Source: Rhodococcus sp. KBS0724
GTDB lineage: Bacteria > Actinomycetota > Actinomycetes > Mycobacteriales > Mycobacteriaceae
Direction of reading: 5' to 3'
Assembly (NCBI RefSeq): GCF_005938745.2
Contig: NZ_VCBX02000001.1
Coordinates: 1,693,501-1,757,500, forward strand
Length of the DNA: 64,000 nucleotides
In this document: positions 36,244 through 41,838 of the stretch, one piece after another
Layout of the letters: each line of letters begins with the position of its first letter
Position numbering within the stretch: position 1 is the first letter of the stretch
Notes under the pieces: generated by a model
What the model was told of the DNA's origin: nothing
The model's database searches: none
What the model saw: only the letters and a program-made list of their open reading frames with translations
Program-made: the position numbers and the translations under genes

Positions 36244-36310
36244 GACACAGCGACGCGCGCTTCCATTAGGTTCTGCGGTAGAGAACCGAAACCGAATCTT
36301 TGGGGGATTG

Positions 36311-36757
36311 ATGACCGAACCGCAGGAACCGAAACCGACCTACGGCGAGATACCGAGCTACGACCAATCAGCCGCCGCCGCCGGCCAGCAGTATCAGCAG
36401 TATCCGACCGAGCAGTACCCGACGGGCCAGCAGTACGGCGCGCCGCAGCAATATGCAGCCCCGCAGACCTACGCGCAGCCGCAATACGGTCCGCCCAAGT
36501 CCAATGCAGGCTGGGCCGTCGCGTCGATCATCTTCTTCTGGCCGGTCGCGTTTGCCGCGTTCAACCACCTGCACGACATCTATCCCAAGTGGGCGATGGG
36601 CGATCACCAGGGCGCTCAGTACGCGTCGGAGCGGGTGAAGAAGCTCGGGCAGATCGCGCTCTTGATCGCTGTCATCGGATGGGTTCTGCTCATCGCGTTC
36701 TACGTCATCTTCCTGGTCGCGATCGTGGCGTCCGTCGACAGCTACAACTACAACTGA
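36311..36757 (+). CDS. CD225/dispanin family membrane protein
   Basis: 148-aa protein. The N-terminal half is rich in Gln, Tyr and Pro (repeats such as QQYPTEQYPTGQQYG) and likely disordered. The C-terminal half has two membrane helices with the CD225 pattern SNAGWAVASIIFFWPVAF and a cytoplasmic loop holding YASERVKKLGQIAL. Bacterial dispanins are of unknown function. The ATG at 36311 has a GGGGG site 6 nt upstream. Confidence 0.85.
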   Translation: MTEPQEPKPTYGEIPSYDQSAAAAGQQYQQYPTEQYPTGQQYGAPQQYAAPQTYAQPQYGPPKSNAGWAVASIIFFWPVAFAAFNHLHDIYPKWAMGDHQGAQYASERVKKLGQIALLIAVIGWVLLIAFYVIFLVAIVASVDSYNYN

Positions 36758-36827: not shown

Positions 36828-37907
36828 GTGAGCCTTACCCTCGGAATCGTCGGACTGCCCAACGTCGGCAAGTCCACCCTTTTCAATGCACTGACCAACA
36901 ACGACGTGTTGGCTGCGAACTACCCGTTCGCGACCATCGAACCCAACGTCGGCCTGGTCGAGCTGCCCGATCCGCGGCTGCAGAAGCTCGCCGAGATCTT
37001 CGGCTCCGAGCGCATCCTTCCCGCGACCGTGTCTTTCGTCGACATCGCCGGAATCGTGAAGGGCGCCTCCGAGGGCGCGGGCCTTGGCAACAAGTTCCTC
37101 GCCAACATTCGTGAAGCCGACGCAATCTGCCAGGTAGTGCGCGTTTTCGCCGACGACGACGTCATTCACGTCGACGGCAAGGTCGATCCCGCCTCGGACA
37201 TCGAGGTCATCGAAACCGAGCTCGTGATCGCCGACATGCAGACTCTCGAGAAGGCTCTGCCGCGTCTGGACAAGGAAGCTCGCAAGAACAAGGAGCTCAA
37301 GCCGGCCCACGACGAGGCGCTCAAGGCTCAGGCTTTCCTCAATGAGGGCACGACGCTCTTCAGCGTCAAGGACAAGCTCGACTTCTCCTTGCTGCGCGAG
37401 CTGAGCCTGCTCACCACCAAGCCCTTCCTGTACGTCTTCAACGCAGACGAATCGGTGCTCACCGACGCCGCGAAGATCGCCGAACTGCGCGCTTCCGTCG
37501 CTCCGGCCGACGCCGTGTTCCTCGACGCCAAGGTGGAGCAGGAACTCCTCGAACTCGACGAGGAAGACCGCCAGGAAATGCTCGACTCGATCGGCCAAAC
37601 CGAGCCCGGCCTGCATGCTCTCGCGCGTACCGGTTTCCACACCCTCGGGCTGCAGACCTACCTGACGGCTGGTCCGAAGGAAGCTCGCGCCTGGACCATC
37701 CACAAGGGCGATACTGCGCCCCAGGCTGCCGGTGTCATTCACACCGACTTCGAGCGTGGCTTCATCAAGGCTGAAATCGTGTCCTTCGACGATCTCGTCG
37801 AGGCAGGTTCCATGGCTGCAGCCAAGGCTGCCGGCAAGGTCCGCATGGAGGGCAAGGACTACATCATGGCCGACGGCGATGTGGTGGAGTTCCGCTTCAA
37901 CGTGTAG
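36828..37907 (+). CDS. ychF: Redox-regulated ATPase YchF (Obg-like)
   Basis: 359-aa Obg-family P-loop protein that prefers ATP. It has the P-loop [12 protein letters not shown] (9-20), switch motif DIAGIVKGA, a NADE-type specificity block and the C-terminal TGS-like domain. Full length and intact; GTG start with TAGAAT 9 nt upstream. The counterpart of Rv1112. A second, truncated copy of its last two thirds lies at 40043-40762, about 96% identical in the 3' part by eye. Confidence 0.96.
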
Positions 37908-38036
37908 CGACAGCGCGTATTGAGGCGCTAGTACAGTAAAAGCGCCCCAGCGGCGTAATCTGCTATGGACCAGAGGCCGATCGGGGGCGCTGTGACAAGT
38001 ATAGCGCTTAGAGTCAACTGAGATCGTGGGGAGCTA

Positions 38037-39157
38037 TTGACTGATCCGACCGCGTGGATCACCCAACGTCGCTTCGACGAGTACCTGGTGGCGGCCAACC
38101 ACGATCCCGTCGCTGCGCGCGAACTTTACGAGTGGAACGTAGCTATCTCGGCGGCATTCTTCGAGTTGATTTCTCATGTCGAGGTTGCGCTACGTAACGC
38201 TGTCGACGTGGTGCTCCGGCCTCTCGAGACTCCGGAGTCGGCCCGAGTTGCCCCCTGGCAGGGTGGTGGTTCGCGAATCCGGCATTCTTGGCTGACCACG
38301 ACTTGGAGTTCCACCGAACGGCACGCAGGCATCTGGGTCCCCGGGCGGACGGAGCCTCGCGCGATAAGTTTCTGGCATCTGTGACATTTGGTCTCTGGGA
38401 AAGCGTTTTTGGCCCAAAATACGAGCAATTGTTTCGGAGACACCTCGTCTACGCGTTCCCGAACAGGGCCAGGGCGGGTTTTAAGCGTGACACTGTGCAT
38501 AAGAACGTGCTCGCGCTTAAGACGCTGCGCAACCGCGTCGCTCACCATCAGGCAATCTTCGATCTTCCTCTCGAAGAGCGATTCGAACAAGCGATGGATC
38601 TGCTCAGATGGATCGACGCTGATTTGGAGCGATGGGTCTCGAGCTTGTGCAGAGTGCCAACTCTGTTGGACGTGCGCCCGAAGGCAGCCGAATCCATCGC
38701 CGTCGTCGTGCCCGCACGTAAAGCATGGCCGTTCTATCTGGCGCACGGTGCCTATGTTTGCCAACCCGGCAGATACATTCGACAGGTCAGTCACGTCGCG
38801 TTCTATGCCGATGCTGCGGTGCAGCGCGAGGTACCAAAGGTACTTGAAAGGATTGACCACATCGTCTGGACGCCCGAGGAGATTGGTCGAAGGATGGTCT
38901 CGGGCACCGAAGAAGATAAGCGTATCGCGGGAATTATCAAGGGTGCCCGGGACCTTGGCTGGGAGGGGAACGAGTATCAGCTCTTTCTCCTCACTCATCC
39001 CGACGATGAGGGGCGGAGACTGGGGCACGTGACGTTGGGCACCGAGCTTCGGCGACAGGGAAGCGGGCGAGGAAGCGCGTGGGTGCAACGACAGCGATAC
39101 GCGGTTGTTGCTGCAATGTCGGCGGCGCGGACTCTGGGCGACCTCGATCAGTTGTAG
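38037..39157 (+). pseudogene. Abi family protein gene, split by a frameshift
   Basis: Two frames together make one protein of about 373 aa. The first (38037 TTG, GGGGAG site, to about 38265) encodes the start of an Abi domain (RRFDEYLVAAN, AALRNAVDVVL). The second continues in the -1 frame with WWFANPAF and carries LRNRVAHHQAIF, the conserved R-x4-H-like core, to 39157. After residue about 215 comes an extra domain (AYVCQPGRYIRQVSHVAFYA and VPKVLERIDHIVWTP) that is not part of Abi. The break lies in the GGTGGTGG tract near 38260-38275. Abi proteins act in phage abortive infection. It may be a recent mutation or a sequencing error, as the rest of the frame is well kept. Confidence 0.7.
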
Positions 39158-39286
39158 GGAGAATCTGTCGAAAATCCCTTCCCTGTCTCCGCATTGGCGG
39201 TTCGTCGATGCGGAGGCTGCTCAACGATTGGTTAACGATGGGACGTGGTGGGGTCCTGATTGATGCTTAACCCAGTAGTGGATCAC

Positions 39287-40000
39287 TCAGTCTTCTCCGT
39301 AGTAGTCGCCGAGCCTGCGTGCAGCGTAACGCACTTGGACCTTGATCCGATTCTGCAACTGTTCCAAGCTCGAGGCGTTGTCGTGGGAGGTGTTTACTCG
39401 GACGTTGAAGGCTGAGCCTGTGCATCGTGAACACCAGGGGCGGTCGATAACATCTTCAGCCACCAGCGGTTGGCCGAAGATGTGCAGGGCGACGGGCCCT
39501 ATATGCGGCGAGGCTGGACCCCCGTCGCTGTCGATTATGTAATCGACAGCTTGGCAGCCAAAGGGGCTACCCCAGTGTTTGACTCGTCCCCCTCCGCCTT
39601 TCGAGTTGACCACCTCGGGGCACGGTGCCTGGACGCAATACAGAGTCGGTTCACCATAGATGTTTGGCGCTATGAAATGCATATGGGGATCTGTCAATCC
39701 ACATCGTTGGCACCAAGCCTGGGCTGCTCCCGTTGCGAGAGCGAGCGCCAAAACCCGGTCGTCGTCGGTGGGTACGTCTACCGTCCCTGCAGTGTCTGGT
39801 GACTGTCGCCATCCGTCGCGAGAGTAGTCGCGATTGCGAATCCACGCGGTGTGCTCCAGCGACCATTTGACCCTCATACCGCCGCCTCGATCGTGATCCA
39901 AAACCACTGCATACAGCTTTGAAAATGCATCAAGTGGATTGGTTATGCCCATGGGTCGATCCTGCACCAGATCGCGGAACCGGCGTGGGGGTTTGGGCAT
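39287..40000 (-). CDS. Unknown protein with three cysteine-pair motifs
   Basis: 237-aa protein not recognised. It contains CQRCGL (about 97-102), CVQAPC (about 124-129) and CSRCTG near the C-terminus, spaced as in zinc-ribbon or treble-clef folds. His residues lie nearby (DPHMHF and ASPHIG). There is no membrane segment or signal. It is convergent with the Abi-like gene and ends 27 nt upstream of the ychF fragment, inside the lower-GC insert. The coding case rests on the intact frame and the ordered cysteine pairs. Confidence 0.6.
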
Positions 40001-40042
40001 GATTCGATCGAGTGCATCGTGGCGCTGGTCCGTCCCGCTTCC

Positions 40043-40762
40043 GTGTCATTCGTCGACATCGCCGGAATCGTGAAGGTCGTCTCCGAGGGCGCCGGCCTTG
40101 GCAACAAGTTCCTGGCCAACATTCGTGAAGCTGATGCAATCTGCCAGGTAGTGTGCGTTTTCGCCGCCGACGACGACGTCATTCACGTCGACGGCAAGGT
40201 CGATCCGGCCTGGGACATCGAGGTCATCGAGACCGAGCTCGTGATCGCCGACATGCAGACACTGGAGAAGGCTAAGCCCTTCCTGTACGTGTTCAACGCC
40301 GACGAGTCGGTGCTCACCGACGCGGCGAAGGTCGCTGAATTGCGCGCATCCGTCGCTCCGGCCGACGCCGTGTTCCTCGACGCCAAGGTGGAACAAGAAC
40401 TCCTCGAACTCGACGAGGAAGACCGCCAGGAAATGCTCGACTCGATCGGCCAGACCGAGCCCGGCCTGCACGCTCTCGCGCGTACCGGTTTCCACACCCT
40501 CGGACTGCAGACCTACCTGACGGCTGGTCCGAAGGAAGCTCGCGCCTGGACCATCCACAAGGGCGATACCGCTCCCCAGGCTGCCGGCGTCATTCACACC
40601 GACTTCGAGCGCGGCTTCATCAAGGCTGAAATCGTGTCCTTCGACGATCTCGTCGAGGCGGGTTCCATGGCTGCAGCCAAGACTGCCGGCAAGGTCCGCA
40701 TGGAGGGCAAGGACTACATCATGGCCGACGGCGATGTGGTGGAGTTCCGCTTCAACGTCTAA
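40043..40762 (+). pseudogene. Truncated second copy of ychF
   Basis: Homologous to the intact ychF from base 37029 onward, lacking the first 67 codons including the P-loop. It also has an in-frame 162-nt deletion (the counterpart of 37257-37418) and a 3-nt insertion. The reading frame stays open from a GTG at 40019 (247 aa), but without the nucleotide site it cannot be a YchF ATPase. Differences from the intact copy are mostly synonymous in the 3' part but change residues in the 5' part (RVF to CVF, GAS to VVS). A large hairpin follows, likely the original ychF terminator. Confidence 0.88.
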
Positions 40763-40776
40763 ATCCGTCGTACTGT

Positions 40777-40836
40777 CGCAGGGCAATTGTGCAGCCGCAG
40801 GGAGAACTATCCTCGCGGCTGCACAATTGCCCTGCG
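40777..40836. terminator. 22-bp perfect hairpin after the truncated ychF
   Basis: Arms at 40777-40798 and 40815-40836 are perfectly complementary with a 16-nt loop. It lacks a U-run. Its left arm shares the string GGGCAATT-n-TGCAG-n-CGCAGGG with the hairpin at 43280-43325, so the two may belong to one repeat family. Confidence 0.6.
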
Positions 40837-40872
40837 GCGTCTCACCCGCGCCTTCCGGCGGGCGCTCAGCAG

Positions 40873-41838
40873 TTAGACGGGCATCTCGCTGAGTGTCCGA
40901 TGTGTGACGAACCGCCGCGGCCTCCCCGACAACGGATCGGTGAATTCGAGTTCCCGCGCGAGCAATTGGAGTGGGAGGGAATGATCGTCCGGCGCATCGG
41001 GCAGTAGGTCGGGGTATCGCCGGTCGCCCAGGATTCCGGCGCCGAGAGCCGCCAAATGTACCCGCAACTGGTGCATCCGACCGGAGTGCGGACGTAGAAC
41101 CGTGTGCAGCACAGTGCGTCCGGAGGCGCTCACGCCCGTCCCTCGTGCCTCGATCATGGTCTCGGAGTTAGGTTCACGGCTGTCGTCGACGAGGACCCGC
41201 AACTCGCCGCGCCGAGCTTCGATGTGGTTGCGGTAGACGAGGGGACCGTCGGATTCGGCGAGCCCCGGTGCGCCCTGGCCACAGGGCGGTCGTGCTGACA
41301 CCGCCTCGTAGACCTTCGTGACCTGACGCTTCTCGAACAGTGACTGGTACGCACCGCGCGTCGCGGGGCGGGCCGAGAACATCACCACCCCTGCGGTGCC
41401 GCGGTCGAGTCGATGGATCGGGGTCAGATCCGGGTTGTCGAGGCGGACCCGCAGTCGGACGAGCGCCGACTCACGCAGGTAGCGCCCGCTGGGTGTGGTC
41501 GGGAGAAAATGTGGTTTGTCGATCACGACGAGATCGTCGTCGACGTGCAGGATCTCCTCGTGGAACGGCACCGGGTCCTCCGCCGGCAACTCACGGTAGT
41601 ACCAGACAAACTGGTGCGCGCTGAACTCTGTGCTCCGGCAGATCGGGTGGCCGTCGATACCCACGAACTCGCCGTCGTCGAACCGCCGATACAGGTTTTC
41701 GGCGTCCAGATGGTCGAACTTCGCCACGACGTACTCAGCGATTGTCGCCCACGGCCCGGACGGTGGGATGCGTAGGCGCGTCGGGCCAACGCCGTTCTTG
41801 ACGGGCAGCGGTGGGGGCATTGGCACGCAGGCAATCAT
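40873..41838 (-). CDS. RluA-family pseudouridine synthase
   Basis: 321-aa RNA pseudouridine synthase. The catalytic HRLDRGTAG (Asp in the motif) and the C-terminal HSGRMHQLRVHLAALG block are intact. No S4 domain is evident at the N-terminus, which instead has a leader of about 90 residues. The target RNA is unknown. The start may be the ATG at 41838 or at 41820. Confidence 0.88.
   Translation of the reverse strand: MIACVPMPPPLPVKNGVGPTRLRIPPSGPWATIAEYVVAKFDHLDAENLYRRFDDGEFVGIDGHPICRSTEFSAHQFVWYYRELPAEDPVPFHEEILHVDDDLVVIDKPHFLPTTPSGRYLRESALVRLRVRLDNPDLTPIHRLDRGTAGVVMFSARPATRGAYQSLFEKRQVTKVYEAVSARPPCGQGAPGLAESDGPLVYRNHIEARRGELRVLVDDSREPNSETMIEARGTGVSASGRTVLHTVLRPHSGRMHQLRVHLAALGAGILGDRRYPDLLPDAPDDHSLPLQLLARELEFTDPLSGRPRRFVTHRTLSEMPV

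Follow-up and report, generated by a model that had tools for sequence, protein, structure and literature searches.

Many integrative elements use the 3′ end of a host gene as their target and restore it, the examples including tRNA genes, guaA, rpsI, prfC and the like. The defence-island hotspots of the E. coli pan-genome and of phage satellites reportedly keep to one chromosomal place while their defence cargo varies, and the gene cassettes of integrons are small tandem units with a shared recombination site. Here, we compare these systems with the ychF locus in a stretch of 64,000 nucleotides (nt) from Rhodococcus sp. KBS0724 (hereafter the window), in which an intact ychF gene is followed by a small cassette, containing an Abi-like gene and a gene for a cysteine-motif protein, and then by a second, truncated piece of ychF. 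We consider it likely that, across Mycobacteriales, insertions recur at the 3′ end of ychF and restore the gene, making this end a hotspot, and that the event in the window moved a cassette of this hotspot.

The putative ychF elements resemble those that integrate at other gene 3′ ends in their element-borne gene ending, the direct repeat at their far end, the adjacent tyrosine integrase and their tandem accretion. They differ in that the target is the end of ychF, that many inserts are cassettes of 0.4–5 kilobases (kb) in which no integrase was detected, and that the ychF repeats extend 23 kb downstream. As in defence-island hotspots, the defence cargo varies while the chromosomal place is fixed; unlike there, the present analysis defines both the place and the recombination signature, for the ychF gene of Mycobacteriales. 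Small tandem units with a shared recombination site are also what integron cassettes offer, but the ychF site is the end of a coding gene, no integron integrase was seen, and movement in trans is hypothetical.

The recurrence of the site was assessed by searching each locus for copies of the last 60 nt of its ychF, up to 10 kb away and at an ungapped score of at least 18, in a panel biased towards ychF close to that of the window. The ending is repeated downstream on the same strand in 22/108 distinct loci, and in 0/108 for each of the three controls (downstream on the other strand, upstream on the same strand, upstream on the other strand). Other 60-nt segments of ychF, where they gave any match, did so in 1 to 4 of the 108. 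Seven loci were either the window itself or had been retrieved because of a second piece of ychF; in the unselected set of 101 that is left without them, 18 loci have a same-strand repeat of their ychF end further downstream, the controls being 0, 0 and 0. This supports the original prediction, made from the window alone, of ychF as a gene-restoring insertion site to which foreign DNA brings its own ychF ending, and shows the site to be recurrent. Ends of other genes in the same 101 loci (open reading frames of at least 300 codons, with a G+C content at third codon positions of at least 0.75 and at least 3 kb of downstream DNA) were repeated downstream in 4/508 cases.

A second sample consisted of 101 whole genomes of the family, scanned with a degenerate 24-nt pattern of the ychF end with at most 2 mismatches. 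The pattern was matched in 90 genomes, and at least twice in 17. For 16 of these 17, all matches away from ychF (27) share its contig and strand and sit 0.76 to 23 kb downstream of it; the extra match in G041 is on a different contig. The single match of G052 lies 6.5 kb downstream of its ychF, and several genomes have two or three ychF-end repeats in series. The reversed pattern yielded 2 matches across the 101 genomes. A related motif gave 53 downstream matches on the same strand versus 1 on the other in 142 loci, a figure to be read as a contrast and not as a rate, because that set includes loci chosen for repeats or integrases. Judged by these comparisons, the shared recurrent site is the last 15–30 nt of ychF, encoding VEFRFNV and the stop codon, and not codon 67, near which the original prediction had placed the entry of foreign DNA.

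Directly behind the ychF stop codon, and convergent with it, a tyrosine integrase (PF00589) is encoded in three loci (L103, L075 and L105). Relatives of this integrase at an expect value (E) of 1e-70 or lower occur in 33/397 genomes of the order, with the best 4 candidates per genome scored, and 30 of the 37 listed matches were examined as loci. The ychF 3′ end stands beside the integrase in 22 of the 30, and adjacency follows integrase identity: 22/23 at 55% or more, the exception (L210) being a fragment, and 0/7 at 52% or less. Nineteen elements were read about 15 kb downstream each, one of them for 2.2 kb only. The exact 15-mer GTTCCGCTTCAACGT recurs at the far end of 11 of these 19, and a near match from the same ychF-end position in another four, the best minus-strand control scores being 10–14. 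Integrase relics lie behind ychF in L179 and L185 and, within the window's own clade, in L120, L121 and L122. Most small cassettes have no integrase of this clade beside them. Association with ychF and the end repeats, rather than experiment, suggest that one tyrosine-integrase clade uses the ychF 3′ site.

Several observations indicate that the gene ending travels with the cassette. HigB is found at a constant offset behind ychF in six loci (L042, L097, L100, L104, L109 and L125), and in L247 the same HigBA unit starts exactly after a displaced ychF ending. The Phe codon of the terminal FNV-stop is TTT in 6/6 HigB-adjacent loci versus 6/134 others (p = 1e-7); 8 of these 140 loci have a misplaced gene end, of which L082 was counted as TTT among the others and the remaining 7 as non-TTT. 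From this codon usage, the restored ychF ending is apparently supplied by the incoming DNA, the HigBA cassettes bringing their own codon. Between displaced and resident endings, 20/32 differences fall at third codon positions in the 22 loci (p = 7e-4) and 17/28 in the 18 unselected ones (p = 0.003), a bias which argues that the displaced endings were coding before their displacement. Cassettes common to several loci have their boundaries at the ychF end, so that the same recombination site bounds the units. As a separate observation, the ychF tail and the HigBA start form an inverted repeat (TAACG-TCTAG-CGTTA) in L042, L100 and L109, and the ychF end may therefore double as a toxin-antitoxin operator.

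As a test of transfer, the comparison of cassette identity with ychF identity gives a mixed picture. A cassette of 428–430 nt with a Cys_rich_CPCC gene occupies the first position in L069 and the second in L257. Identity between these loci is 85% for the cassette and 85% for ychF, and with equal values, descent followed by a later insertion is as good an explanation as transfer. Between L186 and L259, the cassette is 98% identical over 2.4 kb and ychF 91%, and a cassette more alike than ychF speaks for transfer. For L085 and L257 the values are 75% for the cassette and 91% for ychF, while among the HigBA pairs the cassette is more alike than ychF in 5/8 and less alike in the 3 pairs with L125.

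We propose that elements recombine into the last 15–30 nt of ychF while carrying that stretch themselves, whereby ychF would be restored by the element's own stretch and its old ending pushed downstream. Repeated insertions would build tandem arrays of cassettes, each closed by a displaced ychF ending, and small cassettes without the clade integrase have probably decayed or moved in trans. More tentatively, the ychF ending might anchor an integron-like cassette array, to which tail-carrying defence and toxin-antitoxin cassettes are added singly by a recombinase acting in trans. Signs of such one-at-a-time movement are indirect and mixed; if this were how the array grows, loss of the tail of a cassette would damage the host's ychF.

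The interval between ychF and the pseudouridine synthase gene varies widely among other Rhodococcus: it measures 25 nt in two genomes (G001 and G002), 97 nt in G003, 356 nt in another, about 0.85 kb in two more, and 3.3, 3.7, 5.4 kb and beyond in others. The original prediction had called for a search for strains in which ychF is directly followed by a hairpin and the pseudouridine synthase gene; G003, of the window's clade, shows this 'empty' arrangement with a hairpin of the same kind, and other cargo was indeed present at the same place in other species. Cargo was assigned by scanning chosen open reading frames. It includes a PD-T4-6-like kinase (L118), a helicase with Mko-like matches (L120), AbiD/Abi_2 (L108), an HNH protein with an ATPase (L103), HEPN (L256), a GmrSD_N protein with an NsnA match together with HEPN (L175), a type I restriction-modification system with an RmrA-like gene (L251, to which L252 has alignable DNA), PIN proteins (L085, L247 and L257) and HigB (L042). 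Two different genera have the PADLOC candidate PDC-S56 behind ychF (L119, E 4e-246; L254, E 1e-248), and L254 also encodes a PDC-S58/Cas13-ApeA-like protein. Other cargo genes, such as those for Trypsin_2 (L106) and PEMT (L110), gave no defence match. Two further loci are of note for their structure. In L256 (G113), two ychF-end repeats abut head to tail, about 3180 and 3203 nt past the stop codon, and resemble an empty cassette slot. In G023 (L113 and L114), a contig break cuts ychF and the contig ends overlap slightly, which may hide a repeat.

The window belongs to a 6.69-megabase (Mb) contig of a genome (G000) of 7.25 Mb in 3 contigs. Its features are given in the table below and agree in most respects with the original description: an intact ychF, 2.1 kb of intervening DNA, a second copy with an in-frame loss of 54 codons (the one added codon had been missed), and behind it the large hairpin and the pseudouridine synthase gene. 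The insert had also been described as lower in G+C, which holds in direction, although the difference is slight (about 0.57–0.60 against 0.59–0.68 in 500-nt windows). The second copy aligns from about codon 65 and retains about codons 65–143 and 198–359, so that the displaced part is unusually long and exceeds the repeat rather than being limited to it. The two tails are 95.9% identical over the last 486 nt, with the 20 differences that had been estimated by eye. From codon 67 onwards there are 34 nt differences, 26 of them at third codon positions, and the changed codons are mostly synonymous, as stated in the original prediction (27 synonymous, 7 nonsynonymous). No tRNA or transfer-messenger RNA (tmRNA) gene was found in the window, and a tRNA-type insertion site was rejected on this ground.

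Table. Features of the ychF locus, in positions of the window.
Feature	Position	Strand	Remarks
Intact ychF, 359 amino acids	36828..37907	+	MMR_HSR1 and YchF-GTPase_C domains; 3′ part putatively the incoming allele
15-nt stretch GTTCCGCTTCAACGT in the end of intact ychF	37889..37903	+	repeat of the ychF-linked integrase clade elsewhere
PD-T4-5/Abi-like defence gene, frameshifted near 38270	38037..39157	+	pieces 38037-38384 and 38288-39157
Gene for a 237-amino-acid cysteine protein with two invariant CxxC pairs	39287..40000	-	single open reading frame
Displaced ychF tail, 5′-truncated, without codons 144-197, with one extra codon	about 40034..40762	+	
15-nt stretch GTTCCGCTTCAACGT in the end of displaced ychF	40744..40758	+	identical to the stretch in the intact copy
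Terminator-like hairpin, native to ychF in the clade	40774..40839	+	-59.5 kcal/mol, z = -10
Pseudouridine synthase gene, native right flank	40873..41838	-	PF00849

Which of the two tails is native can be approached through their flanks. The truncated copy ends in TAAATCC followed by the hairpin, as do the ychF genes of G003 and of G013 (where the same kind of hairpin is followed by other cargo), while the ending behind the intact copy is unrelated. Because the endings are linked to the native terminator in this way, we infer that the truncated copy is the displaced resident tail and that the intact gene has an incoming one. On this reading, an incoming tail of ychF, joined to the cassette, would have taken over the resident 5′ part in the window, leaving behind the resident tail with its native terminator, which then would have decayed. 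Two side observations concern the 5′ region. A gene for a CD225-domain membrane protein (36308–36757) lies directly 5′ of ychF. The first 62 codons of ychF (36828–37013) are almost invariant synonymously among species of the erythropolis clade, with a third-position identity of 0.95–0.96 that drops to 0.69 over the 30 codons that follow and is about 0.8 thereafter; this drop was considered as an attachment signature and rejected, as a milder 5′ excess is also present in other Rhodococcus and in Nocardia.

An Abi-like gene and a cysteine-motif gene, which the original prediction described as typical of small defence islands, are both present, and defence or toxin-antitoxin cargo is often found at the site; the Abi-like gene is frameshifted in this assembly. 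Its pieces match PD-T4-5 of PADLOC at E 1e-5 and 0.0085. The protein is 36% identical to a 362-amino-acid protein at the same place in L173, which has an intact frame, matches PD-T4-5 at E 6e-13 and is encoded between ychF and a ychF piece. The Abi-like protein contains the motif RNRVAHH, which we take to be a HEPN signature, and is probably a HEPN-type abortive-infection ribonuclease. Since its gene is broken as assembled, this strain may carry an inactive cassette. The cysteine-rich protein is rare, with 11 relatives besides the window's own in a collection of 5.8 billion proteins. Its predicted structure (mean predicted local distance difference test score, pLDDT, of 68) gave no fold match at E of 0.001 or lower, and its sequence no PDB match at 0.1 or lower. 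It is probably metal-binding, and would be either a partner of the Abi-like protein or a separate gene. No relatives of the cargo DNA were found in 27 other genomes of the genus, and one further match of 32 nt was found in its own genome.

Several points weigh against a ychF-end hotspot and against the window as a product of it. No integrase or integrase relic was detected behind the window's ychF, and the integrases of this genome are all distant from the ychF-linked clade (best E 6e-14); the insert is therefore not classed as an integrase element. Elsewhere, a fragment of the integrase clade (about 70% identity; L210/L246, G510) has no ychF in 17.5 kb, and no far-end repeat was found in 4/19 elements, including one whose contig stops after 2.2 kb. 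Neither excision nor mobility was observed for the ychF-end elements. Within the panel, each window tail finds its closest match in the other, with weak sister support (86/76) in a tree of little resolution. The original prediction had the two alleles come from different lineages and expected such a tree to separate them by species; since they group together instead, the donor more likely belonged to the same species or to a sister species.

The long ychF remnants, too, do not fit simple integrase action. A second ychF match was found in 8/401 genomes of the family, and five of these have long pieces downstream of an intact ychF: the window genome, G014 (561 nt, 99.5%), G376 (323 nt, 91%), G380 (208 nt, 98.6%, without the 3′ end) and G352 (96 nt plus a 33-nt piece). 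The other second matches were left out as long copies, namely G023 (ychF across two contigs), G207 (two abutting matches) and G195 (a 44-amino-acid piece at a contig end). Some long copies carry internal deletions, and their starting points differ, lying near codons 65 (window), 174, 250, 239 and 226; the breakpoint near codon 67 is private to the window genome, and codon 67 was accordingly rejected as the site. A native-type terminator follows the ychF piece in G352, as in the window, and follows the intact copy in G376, the reverse of the window. The remnants would fit better with homologous recombination in ychF and an irregular second junction, or with a single crossover. For the window, a long remnant and a private breakpoint make it probable that the event was homologous recombination inside ychF at the left end, combined with an irregular junction at the right end.

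For the window only, a possible though doubtful alternative is a Campbell-type single crossover in ychF, in which the cargo and a ychF that had lost its 5′ part beforehand would arrive on a circular DNA, the product being a full gene and a truncated one with the cargo between them. The geometry fits, with the full copy first, the truncated copy second and the native flank behind; no integrase would be needed, and the private breakpoints of the five long-copy genomes agree with it. However, the cargo had no plasmid or phage match in two collections, for which reason such a source was rejected, and a crossover leaves the short repeats and the integrase link elsewhere unexplained. An ordinary tandem duplication of ychF in the strain, followed by the insertion of unrelated DNA between the copies, would explain why the window tails are closest to each other, but is improbable given the number and third-position bias of their differences, their differing endings, and the many other genomes with cargo and ychF ends at the same site. 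Slightly less credible still is that the short repeats are decay remnants of long duplicates made by homologous recombination, the ychF end being no recombinase site at all. Long copies in five genomes, some internally deleted, are in its favour, yet the repeats concentrate in the last 60 nt (22/108, against 1–4/108 for other segments with any match), the HigBA cassette begins exactly after the stop codon in several genera, and integrases adjoin the ychF end. An assembly artefact in the window can practically be dismissed, as a base-calling error might account for the Abi-like frameshift but not for two clearly different ychF alleles within a 6.69-Mb contig, nor for the four other genomes with a long ychF piece downstream of an intact ychF.

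PMC6375853 and PMC8637289 describe a pneumococcal prophage with a 14-bp bacterial attachment site (attB) upstream of ychF, between dnaN and ychF, that alters the promoter; the neighbouring gene is the same, but that site is upstream, whereas the one described here is the coding 3′ end. A survey of Actinobacteria speaks of prophage integration hotspots in general (PMC9903846). In a literature search that covered few subscription papers, no earlier description of integration at the ychF 3′ end came up.

If the ychF 3′ end is such a hotspot, consequences follow on several levels. The integrase clade, with its predictable site, could become an integration tool for GC-rich hosts. As ychF serves as a marker gene in Rhodococcus trees (PMC5726852), caution would be due with such trees, because the 3′ end may be replaced by incoming DNA. 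New systems might be mined by inspecting the DNA downstream of ychF. For the actinobacteria themselves, the ychF 3′ end would be a fixed address, marked by a coding motif of 15–24 nt, where defence and toxin-antitoxin cassettes collect.

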